Shown here piece by piece: positions 9,803 to 30,635 of a DNA stretch of 50,754 bases. Source of the DNA: Haloferax sp. Q22. Lineage in GTDB: Archaea > Halobacteriota > Halobacteria > Halobacteriales > Haloferacaceae. The stretch covers positions 1-50,754 of the forward strand of contig NZ_LOEP01000015.1 in NCBI RefSeq assembly GCF_001482285.1, read 5' to 3'. Under the pieces are notes generated by a model that was given only the letters and a program-made list of their open reading frames with translations, did not search any database and was not told the origin of the DNA. The stretch's first letter is position 1. The number at the start of each line of letters is the position of its first letter. Position numbers and translations under genes: made by a program.

Positions 9803-9837
9803 TTGTGAATACCAGTCCGTGCTGGAGAGTGGAGTGA

Positions 9838-9950
9838 CGAAAGCCCACGGCCGCTCGGCATCCCGCGACCCACTCTGCGCTCCTCGTGCCTGTGGTGCTG
9901 GCGGGGTCGGGGGACGACCGAGACGGCCGCGCCCTTTCTGAGTCCACCAG
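9838..9950. repeat. GC-rich dispersed repeat, family A, copy 2
   Basis: The shorter copy of the element at 7678-7874, with the same left end (CGAAAGCCCACGGCCGCTCG) and right end (GGGGGACGACCGAGACGGCC then CGCCCTTTCTGAG) and a reduced interior. Nothing else is seen between 9803 and 10060. Confidence 0.65.
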
Positions 9951-10096
9951 GGCAGTAGCTGATTCGTCGAGCGACGCGTCAGCTAGATACCTGTTACGTC
10001 ACGGGCCGTCTCGCTCGTTGCAGCTATCTGACGAGAGTTCGGGAGAGTCGAGAGTTTCAAACCAAAATTTATCCGATGTGGGCTACAGGAAGCGGT

Positions 10097-11143: not shown

Positions 11144-11356
11144 CTCTACCTCCCTGACACAATCGGTCCGGCGGATTGTTCGTGGAGACGACTGAACAAG
11201 CGGCTGCGACAGCTCGTGTCAGTGCCGGCGGCGGCGCGGGATGATCGGGATTTGCTGCCGCTATCCGTTGTATCGGCTGTAGCGCTCACGGACACACAGG
11301 ATATCGGCTCTATTGAAATTCTCAACGCCCACCATATTCTGCAGGAGGTCGGGTAG
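11144..11356 (+). other. in-frame open stretch after the kinase stop (possible gene remnant)
   Basis: After the kinase TAA the same frame stays open for 70 codons to a TAG at 11354-11356. Parts look coding, such as PLSVVSAVALTD and IEILNAHHILQEVG, but no start codon or family is evident. It could be a decayed gene tail or a chance open frame in GC-rich DNA. Confidence 0.2.
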
Positions 11357-11369
11357 CAGATCTGCCGCT

Positions 11370-11651
11370 CTATCCTTGTTCGGCTGGCTGATCGTCTTCA
11401 CTGGGAGTCCGCATCCACGCGATGCCGATTCCGACGAACATTATCACGGCAGCAATTGGTTCAATCCACGGGAGAAGCGATGACTCACCGGAAAGGAAAT
11501 TGTCATAAAACACGCCGATAGTCGCACCTCCGAGGAAGACAACCCAGCCAGCTGTCCGACCCATAGTCCAGTCCTCCGTTCGTGCTTGATAGAGTACGAG
11601 AAGCCACGCAAGCGCAAATAGTCCACTAACCAGAAGCGGTACCCAGTCCAT
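11370..11651 (-). CDS. small membrane protein, three predicted TM segments
   Basis: 93 residues starting MDWVPLLVSGLFALAWLLVL. Three hydrophobic segments are visible (about residues 4-20, 31-50 and 60-80), followed by a short acidic tail (TPSEDDQPAEQG). The frame extends to 11702, but the added N-terminus is charged and aromatic and the ATG at 11651 directly begins the first membrane span. No family is recognised. It is flanked by the kinase on one side and a lipoprotein gene on the other, with no evident operon. Confidence 0.65.
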   Translation of the reverse strand: MDWVPLLVSGLFALAWLLVLYQARTEDWTMGRTAGWVVFLGGATIGVFYDNFLSGESSLLPWIEPIAAVIMFVGIGIAWMRTPSEDDQPAEQG

Positions 11652-11740
11652 AGCCGCCGATACCGAGCGCAAAAAGAAAAAATCCGGGTGGAAAATTCGC
11701 ACACCCTCCTCACGGATGTTTCAGCTGATGAATTGCCTAG

Positions 11741-11755
11741 CTAATAGGATTTCAA
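11741..11755. repeat. 15-bp shared motif, copy 1
   Basis: CTAATAGGATTTCAA is identical to 16414-16428. Similarity continues weakly to the left (TTTCAG then TGA, TTG) for about 20 bp in both places. It may be the end of a vanished mobile element. Confidence 0.4.
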
Positions 11756-11899
11756 CAGAGCTAGTATATTCTCACGGGTCCGTCCCGCGCGTCCCTTGCC
11801 ACCTTTCGCATCGCATACTTACCGGTTCTATACGCGATTGGAATGCCATTCGCAGACTCGCATAGCCTGCTTGTAATTAGCCGTCAGTTCGGTATCTGT

Positions 11900-12658
11900 T
11901 CACGCGCAGGCATTTCGAATGCCCTCAGTGATTCTGACGACAGACACGTCAGATGGAGTGAGCCGGTAGACCACGTTCGTCTTCAGGCCGTCAACCGCTC
12001 CGCTGGATCCATCACAGCTGTATTCGTAGGAGTACGGCATTTTGACGCGAACGTACGAGCCGGCGTCACTCTGGTTAATCACGGTCGTTTCGATGGTCCC
12101 GTACACACCTGCAGAGCCGGTCGTGTTCGAGATGTTGGCGAGGCGAGCTTCAATCCGTTGTTGCTCCGCGCTAACTGCTCGGTCGACGGCTGACGGCTGA
12201 GTCTCTTGGGGGTTTTCACAAACCATATCGACCCCGTCAATGACCTCAATCAAGTCCGTTGCATTCGGAGAAACCTGATACCGGGCAATCGTGGTGAGTC
12301 CATCTACGGCGCCGCTCTTATTTCCACAGTAGTACTCATACGAGTACGACATTTTGACCCGGACTTCGATGCCTGAACTACTCTGATTGACAACGGTGGC
12401 GTTGGGTTCTCCGTAGATCCCAACGCTACTCCCAGAGATCGTGCTCGCGTTCCCAAGCATCTCCGTGACCCGGTTGGTTTCGGCGGTCAGTGCTCGCTGT
12501 TTCGCATCAGCTGGGGAAAACTGAGTGGGCTGGTCTGGTGTCGCTGACGCCGATGGTGTGGAGGAGGGTTCTGGTGGGGAACTACCGCCGAAGCCCGCAC
12601 AGCCGGCGAAAGCGACGATGAGAACCAGCAGTAGCGGGAGACCAATTCGTGACTCCAT
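11900..12658 (-). CDS. lipoprotein with internally duplicated domain
   Basis: 252-residue secreted lipoprotein: signal segment MESRIGLPLLLVLIVAFAGC with the lipobox cysteine at about residue 20, then a Ser/Pro-rich linker. The mature part holds two homologous copies of about 85 residues, each running from a helix (TNRVTEMLGNAST / QQRIEARLANISN) through VGIYG or AGVYG, TVVNQS or TVINQS, VRVKM(S/P)YSYEY, SGAVDGL and a closing beta strand. Each copy carries a conserved cysteine pair (YYCGN...MVCEN and YSCDG...NACA), possibly disulfides. No known function. The start at 12658 is chosen because it begins the signal peptide. Confidence 0.75.
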   Translation of the reverse strand: MESRIGLPLLLVLIVAFAGCAGFGGSSPPEPSSTPSASATPDQPTQFSPADAKQRALTAETNRVTEMLGNASTISGSSVGIYGEPNATVVNQSSSGIEVRVKMSYSYEYYCGNKSGAVDGLTTIARYQVSPNATDLIEVIDGVDMVCENPQETQPSAVDRAVSAEQQRIEARLANISNTTGSAGVYGTIETTVINQSDAGSYVRVKMPYSYEYSCDGSSGAVDGLKTNVVYRLTPSDVSVVRITEGIRNACA

Positions 12659-12826
12659 AGAACAACCTCGCAGCAGCGCTGGCATATGCTTTCTGAAGCC
12701 TCAAATGGATGGTTTGAGAGGAGCCGAAGGGAACTCCCCGGCACGCGACCCGAAATGTCAGGACTCAAGGTGAGTGCCAACTTCGGCAAGCAAGCACGCG
12801 GAGACAATCCAATTCCTGTGGATCAA

Positions 12827-12880
12827 GACGGCCCGCCCCGCTCGCCGCGTTCCGCCCTCCGCGTCGCTCGCGACCGACCA
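12827..12880. repeat. GC-rich dispersed repeat, family B, copy 2
   Basis: GACGGCCCGCCCCGCTCGCC and what follows nearly repeat 7923-7975, with only a few differences over about 53 bp. Confidence 0.6.
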
Positions 12881-13156
12881 TTCCGGGCATGCGGCGAGCA
12901 AGCTCGCCGTTCCGGGCTAAAGTGTATGTGCCCTCGGCGCCAGCGGGTATCCCCGTCGGTTGCGCCCCTCGCGGGCTTTCGCGTTCCAGCGCTTGGTGCC
13001 GCCTGCGCTGTCGCGCGCCACACCGCGGCGCGCGTTCGCGGCGACAGTCGCGCTGGACACGGACCCGCTGTCCGGGCCGGACACGAACGGGCATACTCCG
13101 CTGGCTGCTCGCTCCGGGCGGGTCGGCGCGCGGTGCTGGATGGTCGGCCGCCTCGG

Positions 13157-13211
13157 GCGCGCTCTCGCTCGCGCCCACAGGGCGCTCGCGAAGGCGCGAG
13201 CGAGAGCGCGC
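13157..13211. repeat. 19-bp perfect GC hairpin with 17-nt loop
   Basis: The arm 13157-13175 (GCGCGCTCTCGCTCGCGCC) is exactly complementary to 13193-13211, with 17 bases between. It lies about 90 bp upstream of the tfb start. It could fold in RNA or as a cruciform; no T run follows it. Confidence 0.8.
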
Positions 13212-13288
13212 AGACGAGTCTGTCGGGTTGTCGTCGAGGAAATCCGCGATGTAAGGGCATCGCGGTGTCGGGCGCGTGAGCGCCTTCA

Positions 13289-13302
13289 GGTGTTGTAACA
13301 CC
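13289..13302. promoter_or_regulatory. palindrome abutting the tfb start codon
   Basis: GGTGTTGTAACACC is a perfect 14-bp palindromic arrangement (6-bp arms, 2-bp centre) ending two bases before the ATG at 13304. In a leaderless gene this position covers the transcription start, so a bound protein could block initiation. The binder is unknown. Confidence 0.5.
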
Positions 13303-13303
13303 A

Positions 13304-14386
13304 ATGTCGAGTACCAACGCGAGCGAAAAGACGGTTTCGGACGAACAGTCTTCAACTACCACGCTGGACGGTCTCGAAGAGACAGTCGAGCGAGAGCCAG
13401 CGGCCCGGTCGGCGTGCCCGGATTGTGAGGGTCGAATCGTAACCAAAGATGAGGAGTCGTTCTGTGCGGACTGTGGCCTGGTCGTCGCGGCCGAGTGGGT
13501 TGATCGGAGCCCGACGCTGGCCGATCTGGGGAAAGTCGGAAACGCTGAGCAGAGCATCGAGACGGTGGACCCGCTGCGGACTGACAAGGGCCTGCACACG
13601 AAGATAACGAAGAGTACTGACGGACACGGCAATCCGCTCAGTAACGAACAGTGGCAGAAGTTCCAGCGCCTCCGGAAGTGGCACAAGCGCTACCAGTTCG
13701 GCGAGGGTCGCAAGCGGACGAAGCGGCTCAACGAGGGGCTGCGCGACATCGAGATGATCGGCGGCAACCTGGGCCTGCCGGGACACGTCGTCAAGACGGC
13801 GGCACAGTACCTGCGACGCGCCTCAGAAGCGCGGTTGGCCGGCGGGCGGATGGCCTGGGAGGCACTCGCGGGCGGTGCCGTCCTCCTTGCAGCGCGCGAG
13901 TCGCGGATCGAGCGCGAAGCGATCGACGTCGACGTGGCGACCTACACGAAGGCACCCCACGAGCGGGTGTGTGCCGCGGCGCGGAAGATTCGGTGTGAAC
14001 TCGGGGTCGACACTGTCCCCGTTACCCGACCGAACGCGGTGATGACGGTCGTGGACGCGCTCGATGACGACGCCATTCCGGCGAGTGCAGCCGTGCGGAC
14101 GTGGCGGCTGGCACACTACCTCATGAAGCTGGGCGATCACGAGCCGGTCGGGCCGGGGACGTCGCGGCTCACCATCGCGGCAGCAGCGGTCTACGGTGCC
14201 GATCGGTTGACGCCCAAGAAGCATCTCACTCAGGGGCAGGTCGCGGAGGCAACCAGCACGGTCGTGCCGACATCGACGAGCCGGATCAGTCGGTACAACT
14301 GCGAGCTCGTCGACGCCTACGAGGCCCGACACGAAACGAAAGACCCGGGTGTCATCCTCGACCAGGAGCCGGACACCCTGCACTGA
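13304..14386 (+). CDS. tfb: transcription initiation factor TFB paralogue
   Basis: 360-residue TFIIB-family factor that recruits RNA polymerase to TBP-bound promoters. The N-terminal zinc ribbon has CPDC (C38, C41) and CADC (C54, C57). A B-reader/linker-like segment follows (WVDRSPTLADLGK...). Two cyclin-like repeats come next, the first around KTAAQYLRRASEARLAGGRMAWEALAGGAVLLAARE and the second around ISRYNCELVDAY, preceded by GTSRLTIAAAAVYGADRL. It diverges from chromosomal housekeeping TFBs, as plasmid-borne haloarchaeal paralogues usually do. A divergent TBP on the same plasmid (41135-41683) could be its partner. The palindrome at its start suggests tight control. Confidence 0.9.
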   Translation: MSSTNASEKTVSDEQSSTTTLDGLEETVEREPAARSACPDCEGRIVTKDEESFCADCGLVVAAEWVDRSPTLADLGKVGNAEQSIETVDPLRTDKGLHTKITKSTDGHGNPLSNEQWQKFQRLRKWHKRYQFGEGRKRTKRLNEGLRDIEMIGGNLGLPGHVVKTAAQYLRRASEARLAGGRMAWEALAGGAVLLAARESRIEREAIDVDVATYTKAPHERVCAAARKIRCELGVDTVPVTRPNAVMTVVDALDDDAIPASAAVRTWRLAHYLMKLGDHEPVGPGTSRLTIAAAAVYGADRLTPKKHLTQGQVAEATSTVVPTSTSRISRYNCELVDAYEARHETKDPGVILDQEPDTLH

Positions 14387-14430
14387 GCGGGGCACTCCCC
14401 CGTTTTTATTGGCGACCACCGCCCGTGGAC

Positions 14431-14489
14431 GCCCCGCCTCCCCACCCACCGCTCCCGGCCTCCCTCCGGTCGGCCGGCAGCCACAACCT
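14431..14489. repeat. 59-bp dispersed repeat, family C, copy 1
   Basis: It begins GCCCCGCCTCCCCACCCACC and ends CCGGCAGCCACAACCT, and differs from 16914-16972 by one base. Its interior (CGGCCTCCCTCCGGTCGGCCGG) can fold on itself. It lies just after the tfb stop. Confidence 0.8.
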
Positions 14490-14574
14490 TGTTTTCACCA
14501 CTGTCACTCGTCGGTTGAGGGATAGCGGGTGAGCGCTGGTTTGTCGTTCCCAAGGGGGACGGAGCGAGTCACTG

Positions 14575-15201
14575 ATGTCACCAACCCCATCGTTTACGCT
14601 CGACGTTGAGACAGCAACCGCTTTTCGCGACTGGTTGTTCGAGACAGGTGTAGAGAACCACAACGACCCACAGATCGCGAATCCCCTCGCTGAACTCGCC
14701 GCTGCAATCGATGGCGAACTCCACGACAGCACGGAGTACGTCGCAATCAGCGCGTCGACGACAGCTTTCCCACCGACTGACCATTCTGCTGGTGTCGACG
14801 ATTCCGGGTCAACAACACACGAGGCGTCAGCGGACCCGACACGACCAACTGACGCTATCCCTGTCGACGACACTGACAGCGACCCTGCCCGACTCTACGA
14901 CAGTCTCCCTGACGACGTGTGGCACGGTTCACTCGACCAACCCGATCCAGGCCAAGCGGACCCGGAACCAGGACACAGCCAAGAGCCATCGTCGACAGCA
15001 GCGCCTCACACGCAAGGAAAAGATGGCCGAATACCGGTTCGATATCGGACCTCGTACGAGTGTTCGGTGTGTGGCAGCATCCGAGAGTTAGAGACCTCGC
15101 TGAAGGTCTGTGCGTTCGTCGACGATTGCGCTGGCTGTGGAGCCGTCGACGTCCGGTTCAGCGCGGTCGGCATCCCCGAGCCAGTCCAGGACTCGTCGTA
15201 A
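14575..15201 (+). CDS. hypothetical protein with C-terminal four-cysteine zinc motif
   Basis: 208 residues in three parts. An N-terminal helical domain (about 1-60, SFTLDVETATAFRDWLF) is followed by a long acidic, Thr/Asp/Pro-rich linker (about 60-150). A C-terminal probable zinc ribbon comes last, with Cys pairs YECSVCGS and DDCAGCG separated by about 20 residues. No family name can be given. The zinc ribbon suggests nucleic-acid or protein binding. The position 190 bp after tfb in the same direction allows, but does not prove, a role in transcription. Confidence 0.65.
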   Translation: MSPTPSFTLDVETATAFRDWLFETGVENHNDPQIANPLAELAAAIDGELHDSTEYVAISASTTAFPPTDHSAGVDDSGSTTHEASADPTRPTDAIPVDDTDSDPARLYDSLPDDVWHGSLDQPDPGQADPEPGHSQEPSSTAAPHTQGKDGRIPVRYRTSYECSVCGSIRELETSLKVCAFVDDCAGCGAVDVRFSAVGIPEPVQDSS

Positions 15202-15355
15202 TTCCGGCTGCATCGTTTCAAGCACCCGACCTTACCCGGTCGATTCTCAACCCAGGTGCCGCGCTTCCATTTCTCTACTCGTGTCGCTATCCACAAACTC
15301 TTACTTTGTAAGTTCGTAGAAAGTCTTATGGAGTCCAAATACATACGTAGCCTGT

Positions 15356-16174
15356 ATGAGTAAGGAAGAGCCAGAAATGGCGACGCTCAACGAGCGTGAT
15401 TACGAGGTTCTTCGGACGATGCGGGAGGGCAGGGTGAACCCCCTCCTAGTTCGCGAACGAACCGCATTAGACAAAGGGGACGTGAACACAGTTCTCGTCC
15501 GCCTCGGTCGAAGCGGGTACATCGAGCAGATCACACGTGGACTCTACGAAATCACCGACAAGGGTCGGGCGGAGCTCCGAGCGGTACGACAAAAACGGGA
15601 GTCCTGGATCTTCCATGATGAGGTGACCGAATCGGACCTCGAGAGCTTCCCCGAACAAGCCGGCAAACTCGACCAGGAGAATGAGTACTACGCGTGGCTT
15701 TTGCTGGGCGTGACGGACGATGGCCGGGCGTACTATTTCGACAAGGTTGAGGAGGAGATCGTGGAGGTAGTCTCGGACGATGACGAGCTGGTAGAAGTGG
15801 AGTCACTCGCGCTTGAGGAGGTTACTCATGGCGAATCGTTCGCCGATCGGATGATGAACTACATGCTCGTCCAGAAGGATCAGCGCGAGTGGGATCGTTG
15901 GTCCCGATACTCGCTTGCCCTTTCGTTCGCTCACGAGATGGGCGGGGTGGCTCGAAACTTCCTGACGAACGAGGAACGAATCGGGTACTCATTCAGAGTC
16001 GTTTTCGACCTTGACTTCTTCGCCGTCATGGCCTTCTTGGGACTCGGCTCAGCAACGACCGACGAGTTCAGTCGCGCCGCACTGGACAAGATGGAGAATA
16101 GCCAAGAACTCCGGGAGTGGATTGATGACTTCGGACTCCCTCGGGAAGCCGAAGAGAAGGAATCAATTAGATAA
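15356..16174 (+). CDS. winged-helix protein, haloviral-repressor-like
   Basis: 272 residues. The first 75 form a winged helix of the kind seen in PhiH1-repressor-like haloarchaeal regulators (LNERDYEVLRTMREGRVNPLLVRERTALDKGDVNTVLVRLGRSGYIEQI...GLYEITDKGRAEL). The rest is acidic and helical with no recognised domain, and ends in a charged tail. The start at 15356 (MSKEEPEM) is used; the ATG at 15377 would also keep the whole helix-turn-helix. A weak TATA-like stretch (about 15325-15342) precedes it. It probably binds DNA as a repressor; its target is unknown. Confidence 0.7.
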   Translation: MSKEEPEMATLNERDYEVLRTMREGRVNPLLVRERTALDKGDVNTVLVRLGRSGYIEQITRGLYEITDKGRAELRAVRQKRESWIFHDEVTESDLESFPEQAGKLDQENEYYAWLLLGVTDDGRAYYFDKVEEEIVEVVSDDDELVEVESLALEEVTHGESFADRMMNYMLVQKDQREWDRWSRYSLALSFAHEMGGVARNFLTNEERIGYSFRVVFDLDFFAVMAFLGLGSATTDEFSRAALDKMENSQELREWIDDFGLPREAEEKESIR

Positions 16175-16491
16175 ATATATTTATAATTTGACTATATGAG
16201 CTCCCGTGCTGTCGTGTTTCGAGTTGATAATACACCGGAGAGACTGATGTTTCGGTCTCGAGTTTCAACCCGTGCTGACACCGTCGCGCCCGTTTGCGGG
16301 ACTTGCGCCTTGTATCTTGCACGGTAGCGAGAACACCATCTGAAACTGGTAGGAAGCTCAGCGGTCAGTTCGCATACCTACCTAATGGCTTTTTCAGTGA
16401 CGAGGTTGTCGAACTAATAGGATTTCAAGGGCCTGTGTTAGTGGATTTTAATTGACTGTGACACGAAGCACTAGGCACCTGAGAACCGACG
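16175..16491. other. intergenic region without a gene
   Basis: It begins with an AT-rich run after the stop of the repressor-like gene (about 16172-16195), as expected for an archaeal T-rich or A-rich termination region. It also contains the second copy of the 15-bp motif. No coding frame or RNA gene is seen. Confidence 0.5.
16414..16428. repeat. 15-bp shared motif, copy 2
   Basis: Identical to 11741-11755 (CTAATAGGATTTCAA), with weaker matching sequence on its left side. Confidence 0.4.
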
Positions 16492-16734
16492 ATGTGGTCA
16501 AACGAACCCCGGTCGCTGCCTGATTGGATCGAGGATGCCTACCAGATCCTCGTATCGGGGACGCCGGATCAGCAGACGGAGCTCTCGCACGACCAGGCCC
16601 AGAGCCTCCTGCTCGCCGCTGAGGAATTCCCAGCTGAACCGGCTGACGCGGAGTACGCTATCGAACGGCTGCTTGACTCCGGCTGGCTCTACGCGGTCGA
16701 TGGCGAGCTGCGGATCACTGATCCAGAGCGTTAA
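16492..16734 (+). CDS. small hypothetical protein, 80 aa
   Basis: 80-residue acidic protein (MWSNEPRSLPDWIEDAYQIL...ERLLDSGWLYAVDGELRITD). The arrangement of three helices followed by a short hairpin (AIERLLDSGWLYAVDGELRIT) resembles a minimal winged helix, but without a recognisable family. Its TAA stop (16732-16734) is part of the left arm of inverted-repeat copy 3, so gene and repeat are physically joined. Composition and codon use look coding. Confidence 0.6.
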   Translation: MWSNEPRSLPDWIEDAYQILVSGTPDQQTELSHDQAQSLLLAAEEFPAEPADAEYAIERLLDSGWLYAVDGELRITDPER

Positions 16735-16772
16735 CCAACATCCTACCTATTATCCCCGCTCCTGTTGGTTAA
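16731..16772. repeat. TTAACCAACA inverted repeat, copy 3
   Basis: Arms at 16731-16740 and 16763-16772, perfect over 10 bp, with a 22-bp centre. The left arm supplies the stop codon of the 80-aa gene. Confidence 0.9.
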
Positions 16773-16913
16773 GAGTGCTGAGGAAGGGCATCCGACCAGC
16801 TGACACAGTAGCAGGGGAGACGTCGACGCGATGGTACGACGTGATCGGTATCCAGACGGGTGGAGCTCCCCCGACTGTCGATTAGATCTCATTCTTCGAA
16901 GCTGCCCGAGACC

Positions 16914-16972
16914 GCCCCGCCTCCCCACCCTCCGCTCCCGGCCTCCCTCCGGTCGGCCGGCAGCCACAACCT
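16914..16972. repeat. 59-bp dispersed repeat, family C, copy 2
   Basis: Matches 14431-14489 at 58 of 59 positions. The rest of 16773-17051 shows no gene. Confidence 0.8.
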
Positions 16973-17051
16973 CGGGGACGATATCTGAATGACTGTTGTA
17001 CGCCCTGTTCAGGAGATTGAGATTTTGAGTCCAGTACCCCTCTACTTCGGA

Positions 17052-18776
17052 TTACTCCGTCCCACGCTTCAGTGCTCGCTCAAGTTCGGTTTGCACAGTC
17101 TCAAAGCGGGCGATCAGGCCGCGCAGCCAGCCGTCGGGGACGACGACGATCGCCTCGCCGTCGTTGAGCCGTTCGAGGTCGCTTTCGACGATCGGATGGG
17201 TTTCGTCCTGGAGTTCCTGGCGGCCAACCGAGCGGCCGTCGCGGTCGTGGACGGGGACGGACCGGCGCTGTTCCTCGCGGCCGATCTGTGACTGGGCGTA
17301 CTCGACGCTCGCCGAATCGCCAACGCGCATGATGACTGATTGGACAAGACCACTCAACAGCGCGTTCGCCCGGTCTTTTCCATAGGTGTCGTGGAGTTGT
17401 GCGACCGACTGCACACCGAGCAAGAGTTGGGTGTTTCGGCCCCGGCCCGCGTTGATCAGGTCGCCAATCTTCCGGAGGCCGGGAAGGCGCGCGAACTCGT
17501 CGAGGACGAAGTACGTGTCTTGATCGTCTGCGAGTGCAAACCGTGCCGCCCAGTCGATGAAGAACCGAAACGCGGGTTGGACTGCGTCGCCCTCCGTAAT
17601 CGGGAAATCCAACAGCAACGTCCGTCCCTGGGGATCCTGCATATACTCTCGGATCGAGAACTCACCTGCCTCGGCGAAGTCGCCGCGGAACAGGTCAGCG
17701 ATGACTTGCTGGAAGTTCGCGTAGACGCCAGCCGCCTGTCGTTCCGAATCCGGATCGATTGCCGATGCCGCCGCGGTGAGATCCGAATGGTCTGTGAGCC
17801 GCTCGTGCATCTCTTGCTTATCCGTCGACTGGACGAACGCGACGAGGTCGGCGTTCGTCGGTGTCGTATCGCTTGCCTGGGCTTCTCGATGAAGATACGT
17901 CACGACGGCAACGAACAGCTGGCGGCCAGCTTGGCTGAAGAACTCCGCGCCATCTGTCTGGGGGAAGAGTGCGCGGCCGATTTCGTCGATATCGGCTTCC
18001 CGTTCGATTTCGGCGAAGAGATTCCAGTATTCGGTTGCGTCCGTCGACGAGAGGTAGATCATGTCCTCGTGCTCGTGGTCGTGTTCGAAGCTCTCCTGAT
18101 ATTCGCCTTTGTAGTCGAAGACGACGAACGGATCGTCAGTTCCAGCCTGCATCTGGTGGGTGAGGAGCTTGATCGTCTCCGTCTTCCCGGCGCCCGTTTC
18201 CCCGAGGACGAGAATCGACCGGTCCTTGCGGAGCGGAACAAATCGCGAGAGACTCATACGATCACTCGCTGCAGAGAGGCTTCGAAACGGGAGGACATAG
18301 TTCCCGTCATCGATAATTCGACGGAATTCACGCTCCGTATCCCAGGTCCGCAGTCGCTGGCCTGCATACACTGCGCTCCCGAGTGCGACGACGAAGCCAC
18401 CCACACGGAGCGGCGTGAACTGCTCGATGAGCGGCAGCGACATGGCGGTCAGATAGCCGGCCTGATGCAGGAAGACTTCAGCGATCTGTGCGAGCAGCAG
18501 GACGTGAAACGCCCAGAACAGCTGGAGGTGCGCTGGAAACAGTAGGACAGTGCCGACTGCGGCCACCAGATAGAACAGAGGGACGAGCCAGAGTGCGCGA
18601 CTCCGATGTAACCCATCGAATTTGAAGTCGTGGAAATTCGCGCGCTCGAGGATGGCATACACCCAGGGCAACAGCAGTGCAGCCGTCATCACGGCCGCGA
18701 TCTGGAAGAAGATCTCAACCTCGTCTTCTTGCCGGTAGTCCTTGCTCTGGGACTCGGAATCAGTATGTCTGCTCAC
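17052..18776 (-). CDS. VirD4/TraG-type coupling ATPase (T4CP)
   Basis: 574-residue membrane-anchored ATPase that in conjugation links the relaxase-DNA complex to the transfer channel. The N-terminal ~140 residues carry several hydrophobic segments (about 24-44, 62-80, 84-104 and 122-140). Walker A GETGAGKT is at about 192-199, followed by VVFDYKGEY. YFVLDEFARLPGL (Walker B) with NAGRGRNTQLLLGVQSVAQL are family signatures. The start ATG overlaps the stop of the relaxase gene by 4 bp (18773-18776), so the two are probably co-translated. No VirB4 or other channel genes lie in the window, so transfer may rely on a host or helper apparatus. Confidence 0.9.
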   Translation of the reverse strand: MSRHTDSESQSKDYRQEDEVEIFFQIAAVMTAALLLPWVYAILERANFHDFKFDGLHRSRALWLVPLFYLVAAVGTVLLFPAHLQLFWAFHVLLLAQIAEVFLHQAGYLTAMSLPLIEQFTPLRVGGFVVALGSAVYAGQRLRTWDTEREFRRIIDDGNYVLPFRSLSAASDRMSLSRFVPLRKDRSILVLGETGAGKTETIKLLTHQMQAGTDDPFVVFDYKGEYQESFEHDHEHEDMIYLSSTDATEYWNLFAEIEREADIDEIGRALFPQTDGAEFFSQAGRQLFVAVVTYLHREAQASDTTPTNADLVAFVQSTDKQEMHERLTDHSDLTAAASAIDPDSERQAAGVYANFQQVIADLFRGDFAEAGEFSIREYMQDPQGRTLLLDFPITEGDAVQPAFRFFIDWAARFALADDQDTYFVLDEFARLPGLRKIGDLINAGRGRNTQLLLGVQSVAQLHDTYGKDRANALLSGLVQSVIMRVGDSASVEYAQSQIGREEQRRSVPVHDRDGRSVGRQELQDETHPIVESDLERLNDGEAIVVVPDGWLRGLIARFETVQTELERALKRGTE

Positions 18777-19339
18777 GATTCAGGCCCCTGTGCTTGTGCC
18801 TGATCGGGTTCTGGGTCGGGATCTTGGTCGTGGTCCATGTCCCGATCAGATTCAGCTTCCAGTTCGTGTGTGGCGTCGTGCTGCAACGTCTGTTCGAACT
18901 GGTGGGAGAGATCCCTGGTGAGTTCGCGATGCTGGTCGTGGAACTGCTCTTGGGCGCGCTCGCGGAGCTGTTCGCAGTCCTCTTTGTCCATCCAGAGGTC
19001 GCGTTTCGTCCCCGTCAGTGCAACTTGGGCGTGTGGATGATCAGTATCGCGATGGATTGCATAACAGTACGTCGCTGTATTGCGGTCCTTGCAAAACTCG
19101 CTCATCACCTGCCGAGTGTACAGACTGAATTGGTCGTCGGAGAGGTCGGTGCCGTTTTCGGGTGAGATGATGACCTCTCGCTCGAACTCGTATTCCTCGG
19201 ACTTCTCGATGAACGCCTCGATCTCCTCGTCGGACATCTCCTCGCCAGCGCGGTTCTCAAGCCCCTTCTCCTTATCCAGATACTCGACGAGGTTCCGCGC
19301 ACCGTGCTCGCGATAGTTGGTGTCCGTGAAGACCTTCAT
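18773..19339 (-). CDS. compact HUH-type relaxase (mobilization endonuclease)
   Basis: 188-residue protein with the relaxase metal-binding motif HRDTDHPH (H96-x-D98-x2-H101-x-H103), equivalent to the HxDxxHxH motif III of MOB relaxases. A Tyr-containing N-terminus (TNYREHGARNLVEYLDKE; Y9 or Y20) could supply the DNA-attacking tyrosine. The tail is a charged, Asp/Gln-rich disordered region. It is far shorter than most bacterial relaxases and lacks a helicase or primase domain. It lies between an RHH accessory gene and a T4CP gene, each overlapping by 4 bp, which strongly supports the call. Which tyrosine is catalytic, and the nick site, are unknown. Confidence 0.8.
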   Translation of the reverse strand: MKVFTDTNYREHGARNLVEYLDKEKGLENRAGEEMSDEEIEAFIEKSEEYEFEREVIISPENGTDLSDDQFSLYTRQVMSEFCKDRNTATYCYAIHRDTDHPHAQVALTGTKRDLWMDKEDCEQLRERAQEQFHDQHRELTRDLSHQFEQTLQHDATHELEAESDRDMDHDQDPDPEPDQAQAQGPES

Positions 19340-19938
19340 CCGCGATCACTCCGAAGCTTATCGAAGAGATCGCTGCCATCGTCCTCATCGCTTTCAGCAT
19401 CGCCGGAGCCGTCTGTCGTCTCGTCGACGTCGTCCGGCGTGTCGTCGGTGGCCGCGTCAGGCGAGTCGGGCTCTTCATCGTTGGTGGGATGCTGCGTTGT
19501 GGACGACTCGGTCGTGGTTTCAGCACTCGCCTTCGTGGCCGACGTGTCCTCACCCACTTCTTGGATACTCGTCTCGAGATCTTGGCGCATCCGGCGAGCC
19601 CCAGTATCGAGTGCCTCTTGCCGGACGTGATCTGACCGATCCTGTTTCATCAGCTCGAAGTTGGCGATTGTGTAGGCGCCGAACTTCGCATTCATATCGC
19701 GGATTTCCTTGGCGGTCTCGACCATTTGCTCGGTGCCGACTGAGATGAGTTCTTGAATGCGTTCTTCAGCGCGCGCTTCTGAGGCAATCGCGTCTTGGGC
19801 GTCCTGCTGGAGCTGGCGGTCGATCATGTCGTTGATGACCCCGGACATGGAGGTGTCTTCCTCAGCGGCGCGCTGTTTGAGTTCGGCCTTGCGTTCGTCA
19901 GTGACGTACACCGTGATCTGCGTGTCGCGCCCACCCAT
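19336..19938 (-). CDS. RHH relaxosome accessory protein (MobC-like)
   Basis: 200 residues. The N-terminus (MGGRDTQITVYVTDERKAELKQRAAEEDTSMSGVINDMIDRQL) is a ribbon-helix-helix DNA-binding domain. It is followed by a long helical, probably coiled-coil middle (about 45-130) and an acidic disordered tail. Proteins of this form bind the transfer origin beside the relaxase and also repress the mob promoter. The frame extends to a GTG at 20055, but the extra 39 residues do not look like the domain, so the ATG at 19938 is used. Three CACATTGG repeats upstream are candidate binding sites. Confidence 0.78.
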   Translation of the reverse strand: MGGRDTQITVYVTDERKAELKQRAAEEDTSMSGVINDMIDRQLQQDAQDAIASEARAEERIQELISVGTEQMVETAKEIRDMNAKFGAYTIANFELMKQDRSDHVRQEALDTGARRMRQDLETSIQEVGEDTSATKASAETTTESSTTQHPTNDEEPDSPDAATDDTPDDVDETTDGSGDAESDEDDGSDLFDKLRSDRG

Positions 19939-20052
19939 TTCAGACGCTCCGAGCGAGACTCGCCGTGGTTGGTGTGAGCGATGCGATGGGGAAATCGGCA
20001 GTCGGTGGATGCGGAAGGCCGGTGTGTGGCGGTAGAGGGCAAGCCAAAGCTG

Positions 20053-20125
20053 CACATTGGTCTGTGAAAAATCGCTGGACGGCAGTTTGTGGAGACCACA
20101 TTGGCTGTATCTACTCCCACATTGG
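20053..20125. repeat. three CACATTGG direct repeats upstream of the mob operon
   Basis: CACATTGG occurs at 20053-20060, 20097-20104 and 20118-20125, spaced 44 and 21 bp, close to whole helical turns. They lie in the otherwise gene-free 19939-20366 between the mob operon and vapBC, where an origin of transfer and the operator for the RHH protein would be expected. Both roles are inferred. Confidence 0.45.
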
Positions 20126-20217
20126 ATTCCACCTTAATTATTATGCCCACAGTCGAGCTGCGAATAACACGGATACTGTAGCTCGAGTGCTCCGAATACA
20201 ATCTGAATGTGAATCGA

Positions 20218-20258
20218 TTAACCAACAAACAGCCGATACAATCGGACTCGTTGGTTAA
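20218..20258. repeat. TTAACCAACA inverted repeat, copy 4
   Basis: Arms at 20218-20226 and 20250-20258 match over 9 bp (the innermost pair is mismatched), with total length 41 bp as in the other copies. It is the only copy between divergent genes (mob operon and vapBC). Confidence 0.85.
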
Positions 20259-20366
20259 GGCGGTGCTCCGAGTGGTGTCGACTGTAATGACCAGCTTGAT
20301 TCGCTAACTACCGAACCCAACGCTAGTCTTTTGTATGACTGTACCAAAGTAATGATAGAGGATAGT

Positions 20367-20675
20367 ATGAGTAAGACAGAGTCTGAAAAAGTGGTGTCTG
20401 TATCGTCGCGCGGGCAAGCCACCATCCCGAAGGAGTTCCGCGAGGAGTTGGGTATCGACACGCCCGGCCGTGTGAAGTTCATTCGGACCGAAGAGGGTGA
20501 CATCGTTGTTCGCCCCATCCACTCGGTTACAGACCTGCGTGGGGTTCTGGAAGGGAAAACCGACGAGCAGGGGCGCTCGGCAACCGAGCGCCTACGGAAG
20601 GAACGTGCAGCGGACAAAGCCAGTGAAGAGGAGTTGCGGCAGCGCTACGCCGGTGACGACGAGGCTGACGCATGA
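20367..20675 (+). CDS. vapB: AbrB/SpoVT-type antitoxin (VapB)
   Basis: 102 residues. The N-terminal swapped-hairpin AbrB domain is clear: VVSVSSRGQATIPKEFREELGIDTPGRVKFIRTEEGDIVVRPI. The C-terminal half is helical and charged, the part that wraps the toxin. It should bind its own promoter and neutralise the PIN toxin encoded next. Starts at 20331 and 20352 are possible; 20367 (MSKTESEK) leads directly into the domain. Its stop overlaps the vapC start by 4 bp (20672-20675). Confidence 0.85.
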   Translation: MSKTESEKVVSVSSRGQATIPKEFREELGIDTPGRVKFIRTEEGDIVVRPIHSVTDLRGVLEGKTDEQGRSATERLRKERAADKASEEELRQRYAGDDEADA

Positions 20676-21100
20676 CGGACGGGGCTGAGATTCCCGAAAC
20701 GATCGTCTTCGACGCCGAACCACTCATCGCCTATTTCTGCAACGAACCGGGGAGCGACACCGTCGAAACGTACGTTGACGCCGTTGAAGGCGCAGCAGAC
20801 GGCTACATCTCGGCGATCAATCTCGCTGAGGTCCACTACATCGTCCGGGCGATTGACGGCGAGGAGCGCGCTGATGCTGTCGTCGACGTCCTCGAGGAAA
20901 GCGGCATCCGTCGGGTCGACACCGAACAGACCTGGGCGTCAGCAGCCGACTTCAAATTCCGCTACTCGCCAGCACTCGGTGATGCCTTTGCACTCGGGAC
21001 TGCAGCGCACGTCGACGGGATGCTCCTGGTCGGTGCGGACGACGACTACGACGACGTCACCGACGTCCCAATCACTCGGTTCCGGACCGAACCGGCATAG
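20672..21100 (+). CDS. vapC: PIN-domain ribonuclease toxin (VapC)
   Basis: 142-residue PIN-fold endoribonuclease. The metal-binding acidic residues are visible in order: IVFDAEPLIAYF (first Asp), NLAEVHYI (Glu), SPALGDAFALGTA (Asp) and GADDDYDDV near the end. VapC toxins cleave specific RNAs when free of antitoxin; as a pair they stabilise plasmids and act in stress response. Translation is coupled to vapB by the ATGA overlap. It ends 27 bp from the convergent phosphoesterase gene. Confidence 0.88.
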   Translation: MTDGAEIPETIVFDAEPLIAYFCNEPGSDTVETYVDAVEGAADGYISAINLAEVHYIVRAIDGEERADAVVDVLEESGIRRVDTEQTWASAADFKFRYSPALGDAFALGTAAHVDGMLLVGADDDYDDVTDVPITRFRTEPA

Positions 21101-21127
21101 ATCCTGGATCTCGTCCCATAGTGGCCG

Positions 21128-22057
21128 CTACGAGTGCTCCTCTGTCCGCTCTTCGAGAAATTCTCGCAGTTTCGATTTGAAAGACGGTGGAGTAGCCCCG
21201 AACGTTGACGCTGCAGATTCGACCACTTCATCAGTCTCGGCTTCCTCTTGTATCGTTCCCAGTCCGTAGAGCACTGTGCGGACGACCTCACTGTAGAACT
21301 CCTCTTCGTCGTAGCAGAATTGACAGTCGTTTCGCCAGTAGTCGGGGACGAACTGCACACGACCGGTGTGTATATGACCAGAGAAGTATGCCTTCCCCGC
21401 GAAGTGTTCCAGCAGTTCGGGGTGCCAGTAGTGATTCACGAGGATTGTCTCGTCTTCGACTAGCTCGGGATTTTGCGTGAATGTCTCTCCAGCAACGGTG
21501 ATACTGTCATCTTCGGGGATGAACGTCCCCGGGAGGTCGTAGTCCTGGAATGGCTGTTCCGGACCGATTGCTCCGTCTCGATTCCCCCAGATGTAGAGAA
21601 ATTCTCCGCGCTCGTGGAGCGTCTCGAAACACGGGGAGACCGCATCGAGCTGTTCTCGACCTTCGTCGACGCCATCGAACCACGCATTCGTGATATCGCC
21701 GACGTGAATTACGAAGTCGAATTCTTCGCCTTCAGTTCCGTCGACGACCCGTTCCAGAGAGTCAACGTCCCCGTGGTTGTCTCCCATACAGAGAAGTGTC
21801 GCTGCGTCCGCGAGCGTGAGTTTCCCGTCTTTCCGAGCCCCGGTGAACAGGACGTCACGCTCCTGTGCCCGGCTCGCCCCGGAAACCGACGGGAGCACCC
21901 CGAGTGCGGCCGTCGCTCCGACCGCGACGCCGCCGCGCAGGAACCCTCTGCGAGAGTGTCCCGACTCCCCGCCTGCGCCCGATGATTTGCCGCCTGCCTG
22001 TTCGTCGGTTTCCTGATCTCCAACCCATTCCCAGTCTGTGGTGTCTGGCGCGTCCAT
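21128..22057 (-). CDS. Tat-exported metallophosphoesterase
   Basis: 309 residues. After a hydrophilic head there is a twin-arginine signal (RRGFLRGGVAVGATAALGVL, about 36-55). The calcineurin-like phosphoesterase motifs follow: MGDNHGD (about 91-97), HVGDITN, GNRDG (in place of the usual GNHD/E), LVNHYWH and GHIHTG. The enzyme should hydrolyse phosphomono- or diesters outside the membrane using two metal ions; the substrate cannot be told. The Arg in GNRD replaces a residue that is often His, so activity may be altered. It is convergent with vapC. Confidence 0.85.
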   Translation of the reverse strand: MDAPDTTDWEWVGDQETDEQAGGKSSGAGGESGHSRRGFLRGGVAVGATAALGVLPSVSGASRAQERDVLFTGARKDGKLTLADAATLLCMGDNHGDVDSLERVVDGTEGEEFDFVIHVGDITNAWFDGVDEGREQLDAVSPCFETLHERGEFLYIWGNRDGAIGPEQPFQDYDLPGTFIPEDDSITVAGETFTQNPELVEDETILVNHYWHPELLEHFAGKAYFSGHIHTGRVQFVPDYWRNDCQFCYDEEEFYSEVVRTVLYGLGTIQEEAETDEVVESAASTFGATPPSFKSKLREFLEERTEEHS

Positions 22058-22211
22058 TGTTGACAGTGACCCCGTTCGTTGATTCGCAGGGTTTGCTGTC
22101 AGCTACAATTTCATAATTGCATCCCCGGCTATTTGTGGTAATTTATCCATCACGCCCAGGGAGGTCGGCGCTGACACAGGTCTTTATCTCGGAACGTGAG
22201 GTTGAACGGGT

Positions 22212-23657
22212 ATGACGGAACTCGATGGGCGGTCGGCTCGTACCCTCGCTGCAGCGGTCCGAGAAGGCACGCTGTCCTCCCTGGACCTCGTCGAGGCGGC
22301 GCTGCAGCGCATCGAAGCGACCGACGAGCTAAACGCGTTCATCACGGTCATCGCGGACTCGGCCCGCGACCGCGCTCGGGCGGCCGACCGGGCAGCCGAT
22401 CGCGGCGAGAATCTCGGTCCCCTCCACGGCGTTCCCGTTGCCATCAAGGACCTCCGGACGCGGAAGGCAGGCGTGCGGCATACGATGGGCCTCACATCGC
22501 TGGCGGACAACGTGGCCGACGCGGACTCCGTCATGGTGGAGCGATTGGAAGCCGCTGGCGCGGTGATCGTCGGCACCACCAGTACACCAGCCCTCGGCCA
22601 CACCATCAAGACGGAGAACCGCCTCGTTGGCGCAACACCGACGCCGTTCGACCACGACCGCTCCGCCGGGGGTTCCTCCGGCGGTTCCGCGGCGGCGCTC
22701 GCGGCGGGGGCAGTCCCGCTCGCGACCGGGTCGGAAATCGGCGGGTCGCTCCGGGTGCCAGCGTCCTGCTGTAGTGTTATCGGCCTGAAACCGACGTTCG
22801 GACTCGTTCCCGAGCGCGTCCCTGCGGACGGGTTCAGTCCTCACTCGCCGTTTTTCGTCGGCGGTCCGATGGCCCGGACGGCCGAGGATATCGCCCTGCT
22901 CCTCGACGTTCTCGCGGGGCCGGACAGTCGCGACCCGTTCAGCGTCCCCCGCGGTGAGACAGCGTACGTGGAATCGACTACTCGACCAACAGCCGACCTC
23001 TCGGTGGGATACTCGCCGACCCTGGGTCTCCAACCCGTCGCACCGACAGTACGTGAGACGGTCGCGGCCGCCGTCGATGACCTCGCGGCCGCTGGGGCGA
23101 CGGTCGATACCGTGGATGTCTCGCTCCCGCCCTACGCAGACCTGTCGATGGCGTACGTCGAACAGGTCGGGGTCTTCTTCAGCGCGTTCGCCCGGCAACT
23201 CGCTGACCGATACGATATCGACTTCGAGACGGCGGACATCGAAGAGACTGTCCGTTCGACCATCGCACTTGGGGAGGATACTGAAGCGGTCAGCGAACGG
23301 CTTCGAAACGTCCCCCGTACCGCCGCATACGACGGGATTCAAGACTCACTCGCCGGGTACGATGCGCTCGTGACGCCCACGCTCACCGTCCCACCGTACA
23401 GCAAGTATCTCGCCGACGGCTATCCAACGGAGATAGATGGGCAGTCGGTCCGGGGCGTTCCGACCGACGCGATGCTGACCTGGGTGTGCAACCTGACAGG
23501 CCATCCAGCGGCGTCAGTCCCCGCCGGATTCACCGACGACGGTCTCCCCGTCGGCCTACAGGTCATCGGCAACCGGTTTGGCGAGGAAGCGATACTGAGT
23601 GTCACGGCGGCGCTCGAACGAGTCCGCCCATGGTCGAGCCAGTATCCTACCTACTGA
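22212..23657 (+). CDS. amidase-signature family hydrolase
   Basis: 481-residue amidase of the GatA-like signature family. The catalytic triad is recognisable: Lys79 in VAIKDLR, the cis-Ser in SAGGSSGGSAAALAAG (about 151-166) and the nucleophile Ser179 in GSEIGGSLRVPAS. The length fits a stand-alone amidase; there are no gatB or gatC neighbours, so transamidation is unlikely. The substrate is unknown (a carboxamide or nitrile-derived amide is possible). It is a single gene, read toward the hxlR gene, and starts about 150 bp from the divergent phosphoesterase start. Confidence 0.88.
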   Translation: MTELDGRSARTLAAAVREGTLSSLDLVEAALQRIEATDELNAFITVIADSARDRARAADRAADRGENLGPLHGVPVAIKDLRTRKAGVRHTMGLTSLADNVADADSVMVERLEAAGAVIVGTTSTPALGHTIKTENRLVGATPTPFDHDRSAGGSSGGSAAALAAGAVPLATGSEIGGSLRVPASCCSVIGLKPTFGLVPERVPADGFSPHSPFFVGGPMARTAEDIALLLDVLAGPDSRDPFSVPRGETAYVESTTRPTADLSVGYSPTLGLQPVAPTVRETVAAAVDDLAAAGATVDTVDVSLPPYADLSMAYVEQVGVFFSAFARQLADRYDIDFETADIEETVRSTIALGEDTEAVSERLRNVPRTAAYDGIQDSLAGYDALVTPTLTVPPYSKYLADGYPTEIDGQSVRGVPTDAMLTWVCNLTGHPAASVPAGFTDDGLPVGLQVIGNRFGEEAILSVTAALERVRPWSSQYPTY

Positions 23658-23734
23658 ATGTACGTTCTCGAGGCTCCGTCGAACCCATATTGTCACGGAA
23701 GAGGGTGCGACCGATTGGTCTCACCGTCCGTCGG

Positions 23735-24073
23735 TCATCGGTTTTCACCAGTGAGCCACTTCTCCCCCCAGTCGTGGATTTCGTCGAACGCCGAGAGAAG
23801 TTCGTCACCCTTCGGAGTCAGAGAGTAATATACGGCAACCGGACTCCCCGCTTCGACTCGGCGCTCGACGTATTCTTTCTCCACCAGGTCATCGAGCACG
23901 CGGGACAACGTCTGTGAGTTCGCATCTGTCGCTCGCTTGAGTTCGTTAAAGCGGAGTTCTCCCTCCCGGAGGACGTGGATAACGGTCATCCGCCAACGGG
24001 ACCCTATCTCTTCGAGGGTTTTGATTACCGGACAGCCTTCGTATTTCGCTTCGAGCGTAGCATCCGATGACAT
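23735..24073 (-). CDS. HxlR-family transcriptional regulator
   Basis: 112-residue winged-helix protein with the HxlR signature: CPVIKTLEEIGSRWRMTVIHVLREGELRFNELKR (Cys near the N-terminus), then SQTLSRVLDDLVEKEYVERRV and YYSLTPKGDELL. HxlR proteins are often redox- or electrophile-responsive through the N-terminal cysteine. It is divergent from the oxidoreductase gene at 24212, with an inverted repeat between them, so it probably controls itself and that gene. Confidence 0.9.
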   Translation of the reverse strand: MSSDATLEAKYEGCPVIKTLEEIGSRWRMTVIHVLREGELRFNELKRATDANSQTLSRVLDDLVEKEYVERRVEAGSPVAVYYSLTPKGDELLSAFDEIHDWGEKWLTGENR

Positions 24074-24080
24074 CAGTGTG

Positions 24081-24136
24081 ACTTGGTCAACCCGACGTTC
24101 GCGGGACTATTTAACAGTCACGTCCCATGACCAAGT
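24081..24136. promoter_or_regulatory. inverted-repeat operator between hxlR and oxidoreductase
   Basis: ACTTGGTCA (24081-24089) and TGACCAAGT (24128-24136) are exact inverses, 38 bp apart. They flank an AT-rich TATTTAAC (about 24107-24114) that can serve as the hxlR TATA box. This suits a divergently transcribed regulator-target pair. Binding is inferred. Confidence 0.55.
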
Positions 24137-24211
24137 ATGGAAATGTGACCGGGCTTGCGGGACTCCGTCACCGGCATCGTGTGACAGCTAGCAGCGAACT
24201 CGACACCCACA

Positions 24212-24850
24212 ATGAACGTACTACTACTCGGTGCGAGCGGACGAATCGGACAGCGAACTGCCACTGAACTCCTCGACCGTGGCCACACCGTGACGGGCGT
24301 CTCCCGGAGCGGGACAGTCGATGGAATCGACGACAACGAGTTCGTCGCCGTCGTCGGAGATGCGACCGACCCCGATCACGTGGCGATGCTCGCCGCGGGT
24401 CACGACGCCGTGGTGTCGACACTCGGCCCGAGTGACGATGAGTCGGCCGGACGCCTCACGGAGATGGTGGAAGCCGTGATCGAGGGATTGCGCCGCGCGG
24501 ACGTCGACCGGCTCGTCTGGACCGGTGGCGCCGGTGGGCTGATGGTCGGCCCGGAGACGATGCTCGTCGAAACGGACGACTTCCCTGAGGAGTGGGACGC
24601 GATTGCGCGGGCCGCCATCGACGCATACGACCGCCTCAGTGAGGCGAGCGGCCTGGCGTGGTCGTACGTCGCGCCAGCGGCGCTGATCGAACCGGGTGAG
24701 CGAACCGGCGAGTACCGGACTGCCGAACGCGAACTCGTGACCGACGAGGAGGGAGACAGCTACATCTCGATGGAGGACTTCGCCGTGGCCCTCGTAGACG
24801 AACTCGAAGAGGAAAACGCGGTTCACACCTACCTCGGAACCGGGTACTGA
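24212..24850 (+). CDS. NAD(P)-binding atypical SDR oxidoreductase
   Basis: 212 residues with a Rossmann fold of the NmrA/YwnB-like type. The dinucleotide-binding GASGRIG is at residues 8-14 (LLLGASGRIGQRTATELLDRGHTVTGVSRS). VGDATDPDHVAMLAAGHDAVVSTLG follows, then RLVWTGGAGGL and a final VHTYLGTGY. Members are NAD(P)H-dependent reductases or redox sensors without the classical YxxxK triad. The neighbouring HxlR gene suggests induction by oxidative or electrophile stress. Confidence 0.82.
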   Translation: MNVLLLGASGRIGQRTATELLDRGHTVTGVSRSGTVDGIDDNEFVAVVGDATDPDHVAMLAAGHDAVVSTLGPSDDESAGRLTEMVEAVIEGLRRADVDRLVWTGGAGGLMVGPETMLVETDDFPEEWDAIARAAIDAYDRLSEASGLAWSYVAPAALIEPGERTGEYRTAERELVTDEEGDSYISMEDFAVALVDELEEENAVHTYLGTGY

Positions 24851-24937
24851 CCGCAGCCTCCCCGTGTTCCGTCGAGACCGCCCTGCTCGCTCAGATCGGC
24901 GGGTGTGAGGTCGAGTCCCTCTCGACCATCGGCGTCG

Positions 24938-27280
24938 TCAAGCCGAAAGATCGACCCCCCTGAGCCGGCGGGCGTTAATGGCGACGATGATCGTCGACAG
25001 CGACATGAACACCGCGCCAATCGCTGGCGACAGGAGGATGCCGATGGGGGCGAGAATCCCGGCCGCGAGCGGCAGGGCGATCACGTTGTAGCCGGTCGCC
25101 CAGACGAGATTCTCCTGCATCTTCCGATAGCTCGCCTTCGAGAGTCGGACGAGGCGGACGACGTCGAGCGGGTTGTTGTCGACGAGGATGATGTCGCCCG
25201 ACTCGATGGCGACGTCGGTCCCCGAGCCGATGGCGATACCGACGTCCGCTCGGGTCAGGGCGGGGGCGTCGTTGACGCCGTCGCCGACCATCGCGACGAG
25301 CTTCCCTTCCGACTGGAGCGATTCGACCGTGGTGTCTTTCTCCTCGGGCAGCACCTCCGCAAAGTACTGGTCGATGCCGAGTTCCTCGGCAACCGCCTTC
25401 GCGACGTCCTCGGAGTCGCCCGTCAGCATCGCCACCTCGATGTCCATCCCGTGGAGTGCCTCGATGGCTCGTCGGCTCTCCTCGCGGATCACGTCCGCGA
25501 GCGCGAACGCCGCCACGACCTCGGACTCCGCACGAGTGAGGTAGATGACGGTCTGGGCGTTCGCGCCCGCCTCGTCGGCGAAGGAGACGATCTCGTCGGC
25601 GGGCTCGATACCGAGTCTCTCTATCAGGTTCGGCCCGCCGAGATGGACCGTGTCGCCGTCGACTGTGGCCCGGACGCCCAGGCCGCGGAGGTTCTCGAAG
25701 TTCGAGACGCTGTCTCGCTGGACACCGTGTTCCTCGGCGGCGGTCCGGATGGCACGCGCGATCATGTGCTCTGAGTCGGCTTCGACGCCCGCGGCGACCT
25801 CGAACGCGCGTTCTTCGCCCCAGTTGCCCGCCGTCTCGACGCCGACGACGCCCTGTTCACCCTTGGTGAGCGTCCCGGTCTTGTCGAACATCACCGTATC
25901 GAGGTTCCGGGCTTCCTCCATGGCGATACGGTCGCGGATGAGCATCCCGTTCCGGGCAGCCGTAGACGTGTTGATAGCGACGACGAGCGGGACCGCGAGA
26001 CCGAGCGCGTGCGGGCAGGCGATGACGAGGACCGTGACGATCCGTTCGAGAACGCCGATGTTGAATCCCGCCGCGACGACCCACGCGACGGCCGTGAGTG
26101 CGGCGACGCTCAGTGCGATGTAGAACAGCCACCCAGCCGCACGGTCGGCGAGCAACTGCGTGCGGGACTTCGACTGCTGGGCCTCGTCGACAAGGCGCAT
26201 GATGCCCGCGAGGGTCGTCTCGTCTCCGGTCTTGGTCACCCGAACGCGGAGGCTGCCGTCCTGGTTGACCGTCCCGGCGACCACTTCGGACCCGGGGTCC
26301 TTGTCGACCGGCCGGGACTCACCCGTAATCATCGACTCGTCGACCGAGGACTCGCCCTCGGCAACCTCGCCGTCGGCGGGAACCGAGGCCCCGGGCCGGA
26401 CGAGTACGACGTCGTCCTCCGCGAGTTCGGAGACGGGGACTTCTTCGGTATCCCCACTTTCGGTGACGCGCTCGGCGGTGTCGGGCATCAGCTTCGCGAG
26501 TTCGTCGAGCGCGCCGGAAGCCTGGCGGACCGAGCGCATCTCCATCCAGTGGCCGAGCAGCATGATATCGATCAGCGTGACCAGTTCCCAGAAGAACGGC
26601 GTCGTCCCTTCGAGGAACAGGCTGGCGATGGAGTAGACGAACGCGACGGTGATCGCCAGCGAGATGAGCATCATCATCCCCGGCTCGCGGTTCTCCAGTT
26701 CGGTGCACGCCATCGAGAGGAACGGCACGCCGCCGTACGCGAAGACGATCACCGAGAGGACAGGCGTAATCCAGACGCTTCCGGGGAACGTCGGTGCCGT
26801 GTAGCCGAAGACGTCCTGAATGAATTCGCTGAAGAAGATGACTGGAATCGAGAGGACGAGCGACACCCAGAACCGCCGCCGGAACATCTGCTCGTGGCCC
26901 GAGTGGTCGGTGTGGGCCTTGTGGTCCCCGCCCCCGCCTTCGTGACCGTGCCCGCCGTGGTCGTCTGCGTCAGGGTCGTCTCTGTCGGGGTCGTTTGCGT
27001 CGGGGTGGTGTGCAGCCCCGCCCGTGTGGTCGTGTTCGGTTTCGGCGTGGTTGTGTCCGGACCCGGCCTCGCGCTCGTGGTGTGCGTGTGCGTCCGATCG
27101 TTCAGACCTCGGGGCGGTCCCGCCGGCCTGGTCGGTGGCCGTATCTTCGGATGGCCGAGTTGGCGCTCGCCGTCCACCGTCTGCTTCTAACTGGCAGACA
27201 CGGCAGCAGTAGACCGCCGCCTCCGAACGGGAGTCCGGGGGCGATCCATCGGGATGGTCGTGGTTTGGATGGTTGCTCAT
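24938..27280 (-). CDS. copB: copper-translocating P-type ATPase, CopB-like
   Basis: 780-residue P1B-type ATPase for metal export across the membrane. The N-terminus is rich in His, Asp and Glu (for example [19 protein letters not shown]) instead of carrying an HMA domain, and the membrane motif is CPH (about residue 422), both typical of CopB (P1B-3) pumps. DKTGT with the phosphorylated Asp (about 466), LTGDSEDV and GDGVNDAP complete the catalytic core. The longer frame starts at 27352; the ATG at 27280 ([12 protein letters not shown]) is preferred because it opens the His-rich region. It is read leftward after copZ. Confidence 0.9.

Positions 27281-27989: not shown

Positions 27990-30635
<2,646 letters not shown>

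Follow-up and report, generated by a model that had tools for sequence, protein, structure and literature searches.

Our analyses revealed an operon of three genes on the minus strand of a 50,754-nt stretch of DNA from Haloferax sp. Q22 (the window), which is the entire contig NZ_LOEP01000015.1 (C7 in our numbering). Bases 50665 to 50754 repeat bases 1 to 90, so that 90 identical bases stand at both ends, and this terminal overlap indicates that the window is a closed circular plasmid of 50,664 bp. The genes, all three of which a first-pass annotation had called at these positions and on this strand, overlap head to tail from 19938 to 17052 in the order ribbon-helix-helix (RHH) protein, relaxase and coupling protein (Table 1). 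Both overlaps had been described as ATGA; this holds for the RHH/relaxase junction, whereas the relaxase/coupling-protein junction reads GTGA because the coupling-protein gene starts with GTG. The predicted VirD4-like ATPase was borne out by its match to the TrwB family, and the 188-residue protein that had drawn attention for the string HRDTDHPH carries this motif at residues 96 to 103 and passes the Relaxase family cut-off.

Table 1. Coordinates of the plasmid, the operon and the upstream features in the window
Feature	Coordinates	Strand	Basis
Closed circular plasmid, 50,664 bp	1..50754		90-bp terminal overlap; window is the whole contig C7
RHH accessory protein, weakly NikA-like, 200 aa, ATG at 19938	19336..19938	-	NikA-like 0.0017 and RHH_1 0.0078, both under curated cut-offs; adjoins relaxase in 59/59 loci
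MOBP-type relaxase, 188 aa	18773..19339	-	PF03432 25.7 bits (cut-off 24.6); invariant residues
Coupling protein of VirD4/TrwB type (574 aa), initiated at GTG, with Walker A motif GETGAGKT	17052..18776	-	PF10412 1.7e-48; TraD_Ftype 1.2e-35
Candidate core of oriT, with the predicted nic at 20040/20039 (CAGCTTTGGCTTG^CCCTC)	20021..20064	-	44 invariant columns in 5 plasmids; matrix rank 1
Three CCAATGTG repeats, possible RHH binding sites	20053-20060, 20097-20104, 20118-20125	-	Plasmid's only three copies; 0.72 expected on 50 kb

The Relaxase family (PF03432, MobA/VirD2) was matched by 21 of the 22 family members that we aligned (best match, 2.2e-10). Across the alignment, Tyr20 (motif I), Ser59-Pro60 (motif II) and His96 (motif III) are invariant and Asp98 is nearly so, a pattern consistent with the three motifs of MOBP relaxases. 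Specifically, motif III of the window relaxase reads His96-x-Asp98-x-x-His101-Pro-His103-x-Gln105, such that its histidine set comprises His96, which is invariant, and His103, with Gln105 in the third position. Most relatives have a histidine at position 105, where L002 and the window clade have a glutamine; position 103 is an aspartate in another clade. The window relaxase resembles the MOBP relaxases RP4 TraI and Agrobacterium VirD2 (PMC3772185) in its one catalytic tyrosine, its motif II serine and its H-x-D-x-x-H-P-H motif III, and is unlike them in its length of only 188 residues, in the replacement of the last motif III histidine by glutamine and in its own diverged nic core. AlphaFold predictions of the full-length and trimmed relaxase, made from only three near-identical sequences, gave unusable models of the HUH fold, with pLDDT values of 57 and 45.

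The relaxase family is present in 33 of 391 haloarchaeal genomes. We counted 59 haloarchaeal loci with the gene set; not all of them are independent, and they encode 52 different relaxases. At every one of these loci the relaxase has an RHH homologue next to it on the same strand; a TrwB-type gene directly follows the relaxase in 57 (none was seen at L071 and L106), and VirB4 lies within ~10 kb in 32. Comparison with the modules at L016, L069 and L070 gave dN/dS ratios of ~0.08 to 0.2 for the relaxase and ~0.07 to 0.12 for the coupling protein; dN is far under dS, indicating that purifying selection maintains both genes. Judged by the Pfam matches, the same gene set in 59 loci and the low dN relative to dS, the operon is no chance arrangement. 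The matches and the recurrence likewise support the first-pass proposal of a mobilization operon with a small relaxase and its own coupling protein. Two variants were observed among the relatives. At L100:9851-11920 a single 690-residue frame spans relaxase and coupling protein, through either a genuine fusion or a sequencing error that shifted the frame. A Halobacterium noricense plasmid carries a second coupling-protein gene alone, with no relaxase (L026:19615-21342), whose product is closer to the window's coupling protein than is the copy in that plasmid's own module (1125 versus 351 bits).

Homologues beside VirB4 genes, which had been proposed as a check on the mobilization reading, were indeed found on the Haloarcula marismortui plasmid pNG500, which a 2011 survey named as the only conjugative plasmid of archaea (PMC3158045), and on other Haloarcula plasmids; all share the arrangement pilin-...-VirB4-RHH-RHH-relaxase-coupling protein. 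On pNG500, three unknown genes separate pilin from VirB4, which is followed by two NikA-like RHH genes, the relaxase and TrwB, in this order. Like the window, pNG500 has homologous RHH, relaxase and TrwB-type genes in the same order and a related nic motif, with relaxases that are 31% identical. It differs in that its operon also includes pilin and VirB4 and in that its oriT-like motif follows the coupling gene; the window lacks a channel, has its oriT candidate ahead of the RHH gene and carries Gln105. Since VirB4 lies near the module in 32 loci, as it does on pNG500, the module is tied to conjugation. The relaxase tree, in which channel-linked and stand-alone labels were assigned by hand and are doubtful for L092 and L110, places the window together with six further stand-alone modules and apart from the pNG500-type ones. 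A protein search of plasmid records returned 25 matches, 21 of them haloarchaeal, and MOB-suite types 20 of the 25 plasmids as non-mobilizable. No relative was found in viral contigs scanned with the relaxase, its relatives and the coupling protein.

The region from 19939 to 20366, to which the first-pass annotation had pointed as a place to look for nicking, contains a candidate oriT (20064 to 20021). In five window-type plasmids that are 3 to 9% divergent over the module, this 44-bp block is invariant while the surrounding non-coding stretch upstream of the RHH gene varies; a run as long as 44 invariant columns arose in 19 of 20,000 column shuffles. A search of the 391 genomes for its 24-bp core returned the window and two other genomes, both module-bearing, and no more. 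Bacterial MOBP plasmids are nicked at (C/T)ATCCTG(C/T) (PMC3772185), and we took as the criterion for a MOBP oriT the sequence (C/T)ATC(C/T)TG^(C/T) with an upstream inverted repeat. The haloarchaeal family motif, with the consensus CTTTATCTTG^YCC (also given as TTTATCTTG^YCC), has a core that closely resembles the bacterial one. In many divergent stand-alone modules it lies upstream of the RHH gene; operons of the pNG500 type have it past the coupling gene, at a distance of a few hundred bases (pNG500 copy, ACTCTTTATCTTGTCC). A matrix built without the window clade ranked the window site first of 101,388 plasmid positions, and in leave-out tests the candidate site came first in 17 of 18 clades, although these ranks are not fully independent because the sites had first been picked by a CTTG pattern. 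With a second matrix the window site again ranked first, its score being reached by one of 175,134 control positions and by 70 of 4,000 resampled intergenic stretches.

The matrix found no site in the stand-alone loci L072, L090, L102, L103, L106 and L108, and the motif is thus not universal. The window's own nic core, TTTGGCTTGCC (TTTGGCTTG^CC), departs from the family core TTTATCTTGCC. A stable hairpin was sought at the window's nic site and not found, the site having only a weak 4-bp inverted repeat with a stability no greater than that of shuffles; several relatives have inverted repeats of 5 to 7 bp at the family motif. Because of the diverged core, the weak hairpin and the loci without a site, we regard the likely oriT as a good prediction short of proof. 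The CCAATGTG repeats, which also occur in the upstream region of L014, L016, L069 and L070, are possible RHH binding sites. Two simpler markers were discarded. The exact bacterial nic pattern YATCYTGY gave 255 matches with no enrichment upstream of the relaxase and is too short to be specific, so the longer family matrix was used; CTTGCC alone was non-specific, with 20 copies in the window.

Other parts of the plasmid carry recognisable gene blocks. Two heavy-metal (copper-type) P-type ATPases flank a small metal-binding chaperone at 24938 to 30635, a block that, judged from its sequence, is likely the plasmid's selectable cargo. At 33891 to 41135 a 1423-residue Eco57I-type methyltransferase adjoins a 988-residue SNF2/helicase protein, in what looks like a defence or restriction-modification pair. 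At 2673 to 5431 an overlapping pair encodes an XPB-like helicase and a DUF790 protein; many further plasmids of haloarchaea carry the two together, at ~84% identity. Immediately beside the oriT candidate, and divergent from the operon, lies a toxin-antitoxin pair (20331 to 21100) with an antitoxin of AbrB type and a PIN/VapC toxin, which is present on CP050019.1 too.

The first-pass annotation had noted no channel genes, and this proved true of the entire plasmid: VirB4, VirB6 and pilin had no match anywhere on the closed circle, nor were they present on the complete 54-kb related plasmid of Haloarcula sp. JP-L23. The plasmid encodes its own Orc1/Cdc6 replication protein and ParA. It is a complete replicon with a relaxase and a coupling protein and with neither VirB4 nor VirB6, the combination by which we recognise a mobilizable plasmid. 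The missing channel, the diverged nic core and Gln105 would also be expected of a decayed remnant of a pNG500-like conjugative plasmid, which has lost its channel genes and now mobilizes nothing. We regard such decay as improbable, because all three genes are intact and evolve with dN far under dS, because five plasmids in several genera have kept the gene set and the invariant 44-bp block, and because the window clusters with the six stand-alone modules, away from the pNG500-type ones.

Three VirB4 loci lie on other contigs of the same genome. On contig C24 (L036:4572-17825) an operon encodes a TrbL_3/VirB6 protein (1.5e-133), VirB4 and a large VirD4-like protein, and no relaxase was recognised in it. 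VirB4 of this type is present in 247 of the 391 haloarchaeal genomes, far more commonly than the relaxase family, and is so common that an association of stand-alone modules with VirB4-bearing genomes proves little. It was present in all three of the genomes with window-type plasmids that we examined (G000, G256 and G280), and the VirB4 loci elsewhere in the Q22 genome may be the plasmid's helpers. Haloarchaea can fuse, and the absence of a channel from the plasmid, together with a genome that has a stand-alone module with a fused relaxase and gave no VirB4 match at E 1e-30 (G101), would suit transfer by cell contact or fusion with no VirB4/VirB6 channel; we consider this very unlikely, as VirB4 accompanies the window-type plasmids in all three genomes and bacterial coupling proteins need a channel. 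Rolling-circle initiators and relaxases share superfamily chemistry, and one of the 22 family members weakly matches a replication-protein model, but a role for the HUH protein in starting rolling-circle replication, or as another plasmid-maintenance nickase, with the upstream block as a replication origin, was considered and rejected as scarcely credible, given that a TrwB-type coupling protein follows the relaxase in 57 of 59 loci with VirB4 beside it in 32, that the best-matching family is Relaxase, that Orc1/Cdc6 and ParA are encoded on the plasmid itself, and that the motif sits after the coupling gene in relatives.

The operon is most probably a MOB module on a mobilizable haloarchaeal plasmid that encodes both relaxosome and coupling protein itself and would use a VirB4/VirB6 channel already resident in the cell. 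From sequence comparison, we infer nicking, RHH binding, the choice of channel and transfer as follows. The RHH protein would bind DNA upstream of its own gene, marking the origin; Tyr20 of the relaxase would cut one strand at the predicted nic and stay on the 5′ end, with the catalytic metal held by His96, His103 and probably Gln105; and the co-encoded coupling protein would feed the relaxase-DNA complex into a mating channel from another element, for which the three other VirB4 loci of this genome are candidates. The glutamine at the last metal ligand, the diverged nic core and the weak 4-bp repeat count against mobilization.

A similar division of labor is known from CloDF13, a mobilizable MOBC plasmid that has its own coupling protein, MobB, and borrows a resident T4SS (PMC7431656). 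Like the window, CloDF13 combines a relaxase and its own coupling protein with no channel; it is MOBC, whereas the window is MOBP-type and archaeal. We know of no archaeal helper. The Sulfolobus plasmids and pT33-3 are archaeal elements with VirB4/VirD4 and no recognised relaxase (PMC12857230). They share with the window archaeal hosts and VirB4/VirD4-type ATPases, but the window has a relaxase, an RHH protein and a candidate oriT, and no VirB4.

Unknown archaeal relaxases were already suspected in the 2011 survey (PMC3158045), and a study of the haloarchaeal plasmidome listed 18 MOBP profile matches (PMC8563766); several of the proteins described here are already named "relaxase" in public annotation. 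A 2023 paper nevertheless stated that neither the genomes nor the conjugative plasmids of archaea have apparent relaxase homologues (PMC9905601), a 2024 paper attributed the difficulty of detecting archaeal mobilizable elements to the lack of known archaeal relaxases (PMC11389934), and a review from 2025 noted that no relaxase had been found on Sulfolobus and Thermococcus plasmids (PMC12857230). Our literature search, which covered few subscription journals, found no paper on an archaeal oriT. We tentatively propose, as a possibility somewhat short of an even chance, that haloarchaea have a widespread and largely unrecognised relaxase-oriT conjugation with MOBP chemistry, including a clade with glutamine for the last metal-ligand histidine and a diverged nic, and that its plasmids, with their own coupling protein, are mobilized by the relaxase-less VirB4/VirB6 elements that are widespread among such hosts. 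Most carriers are called non-mobilizable by plasmid typing software. An accessory protein, a coupling protein and a predicted nic site accompany the 52 distinct relaxases, whose hosts are culturable; relaxase-dependent conjugation in archaea becomes directly testable, and haloarchaeal genetics could gain a transfer vector.
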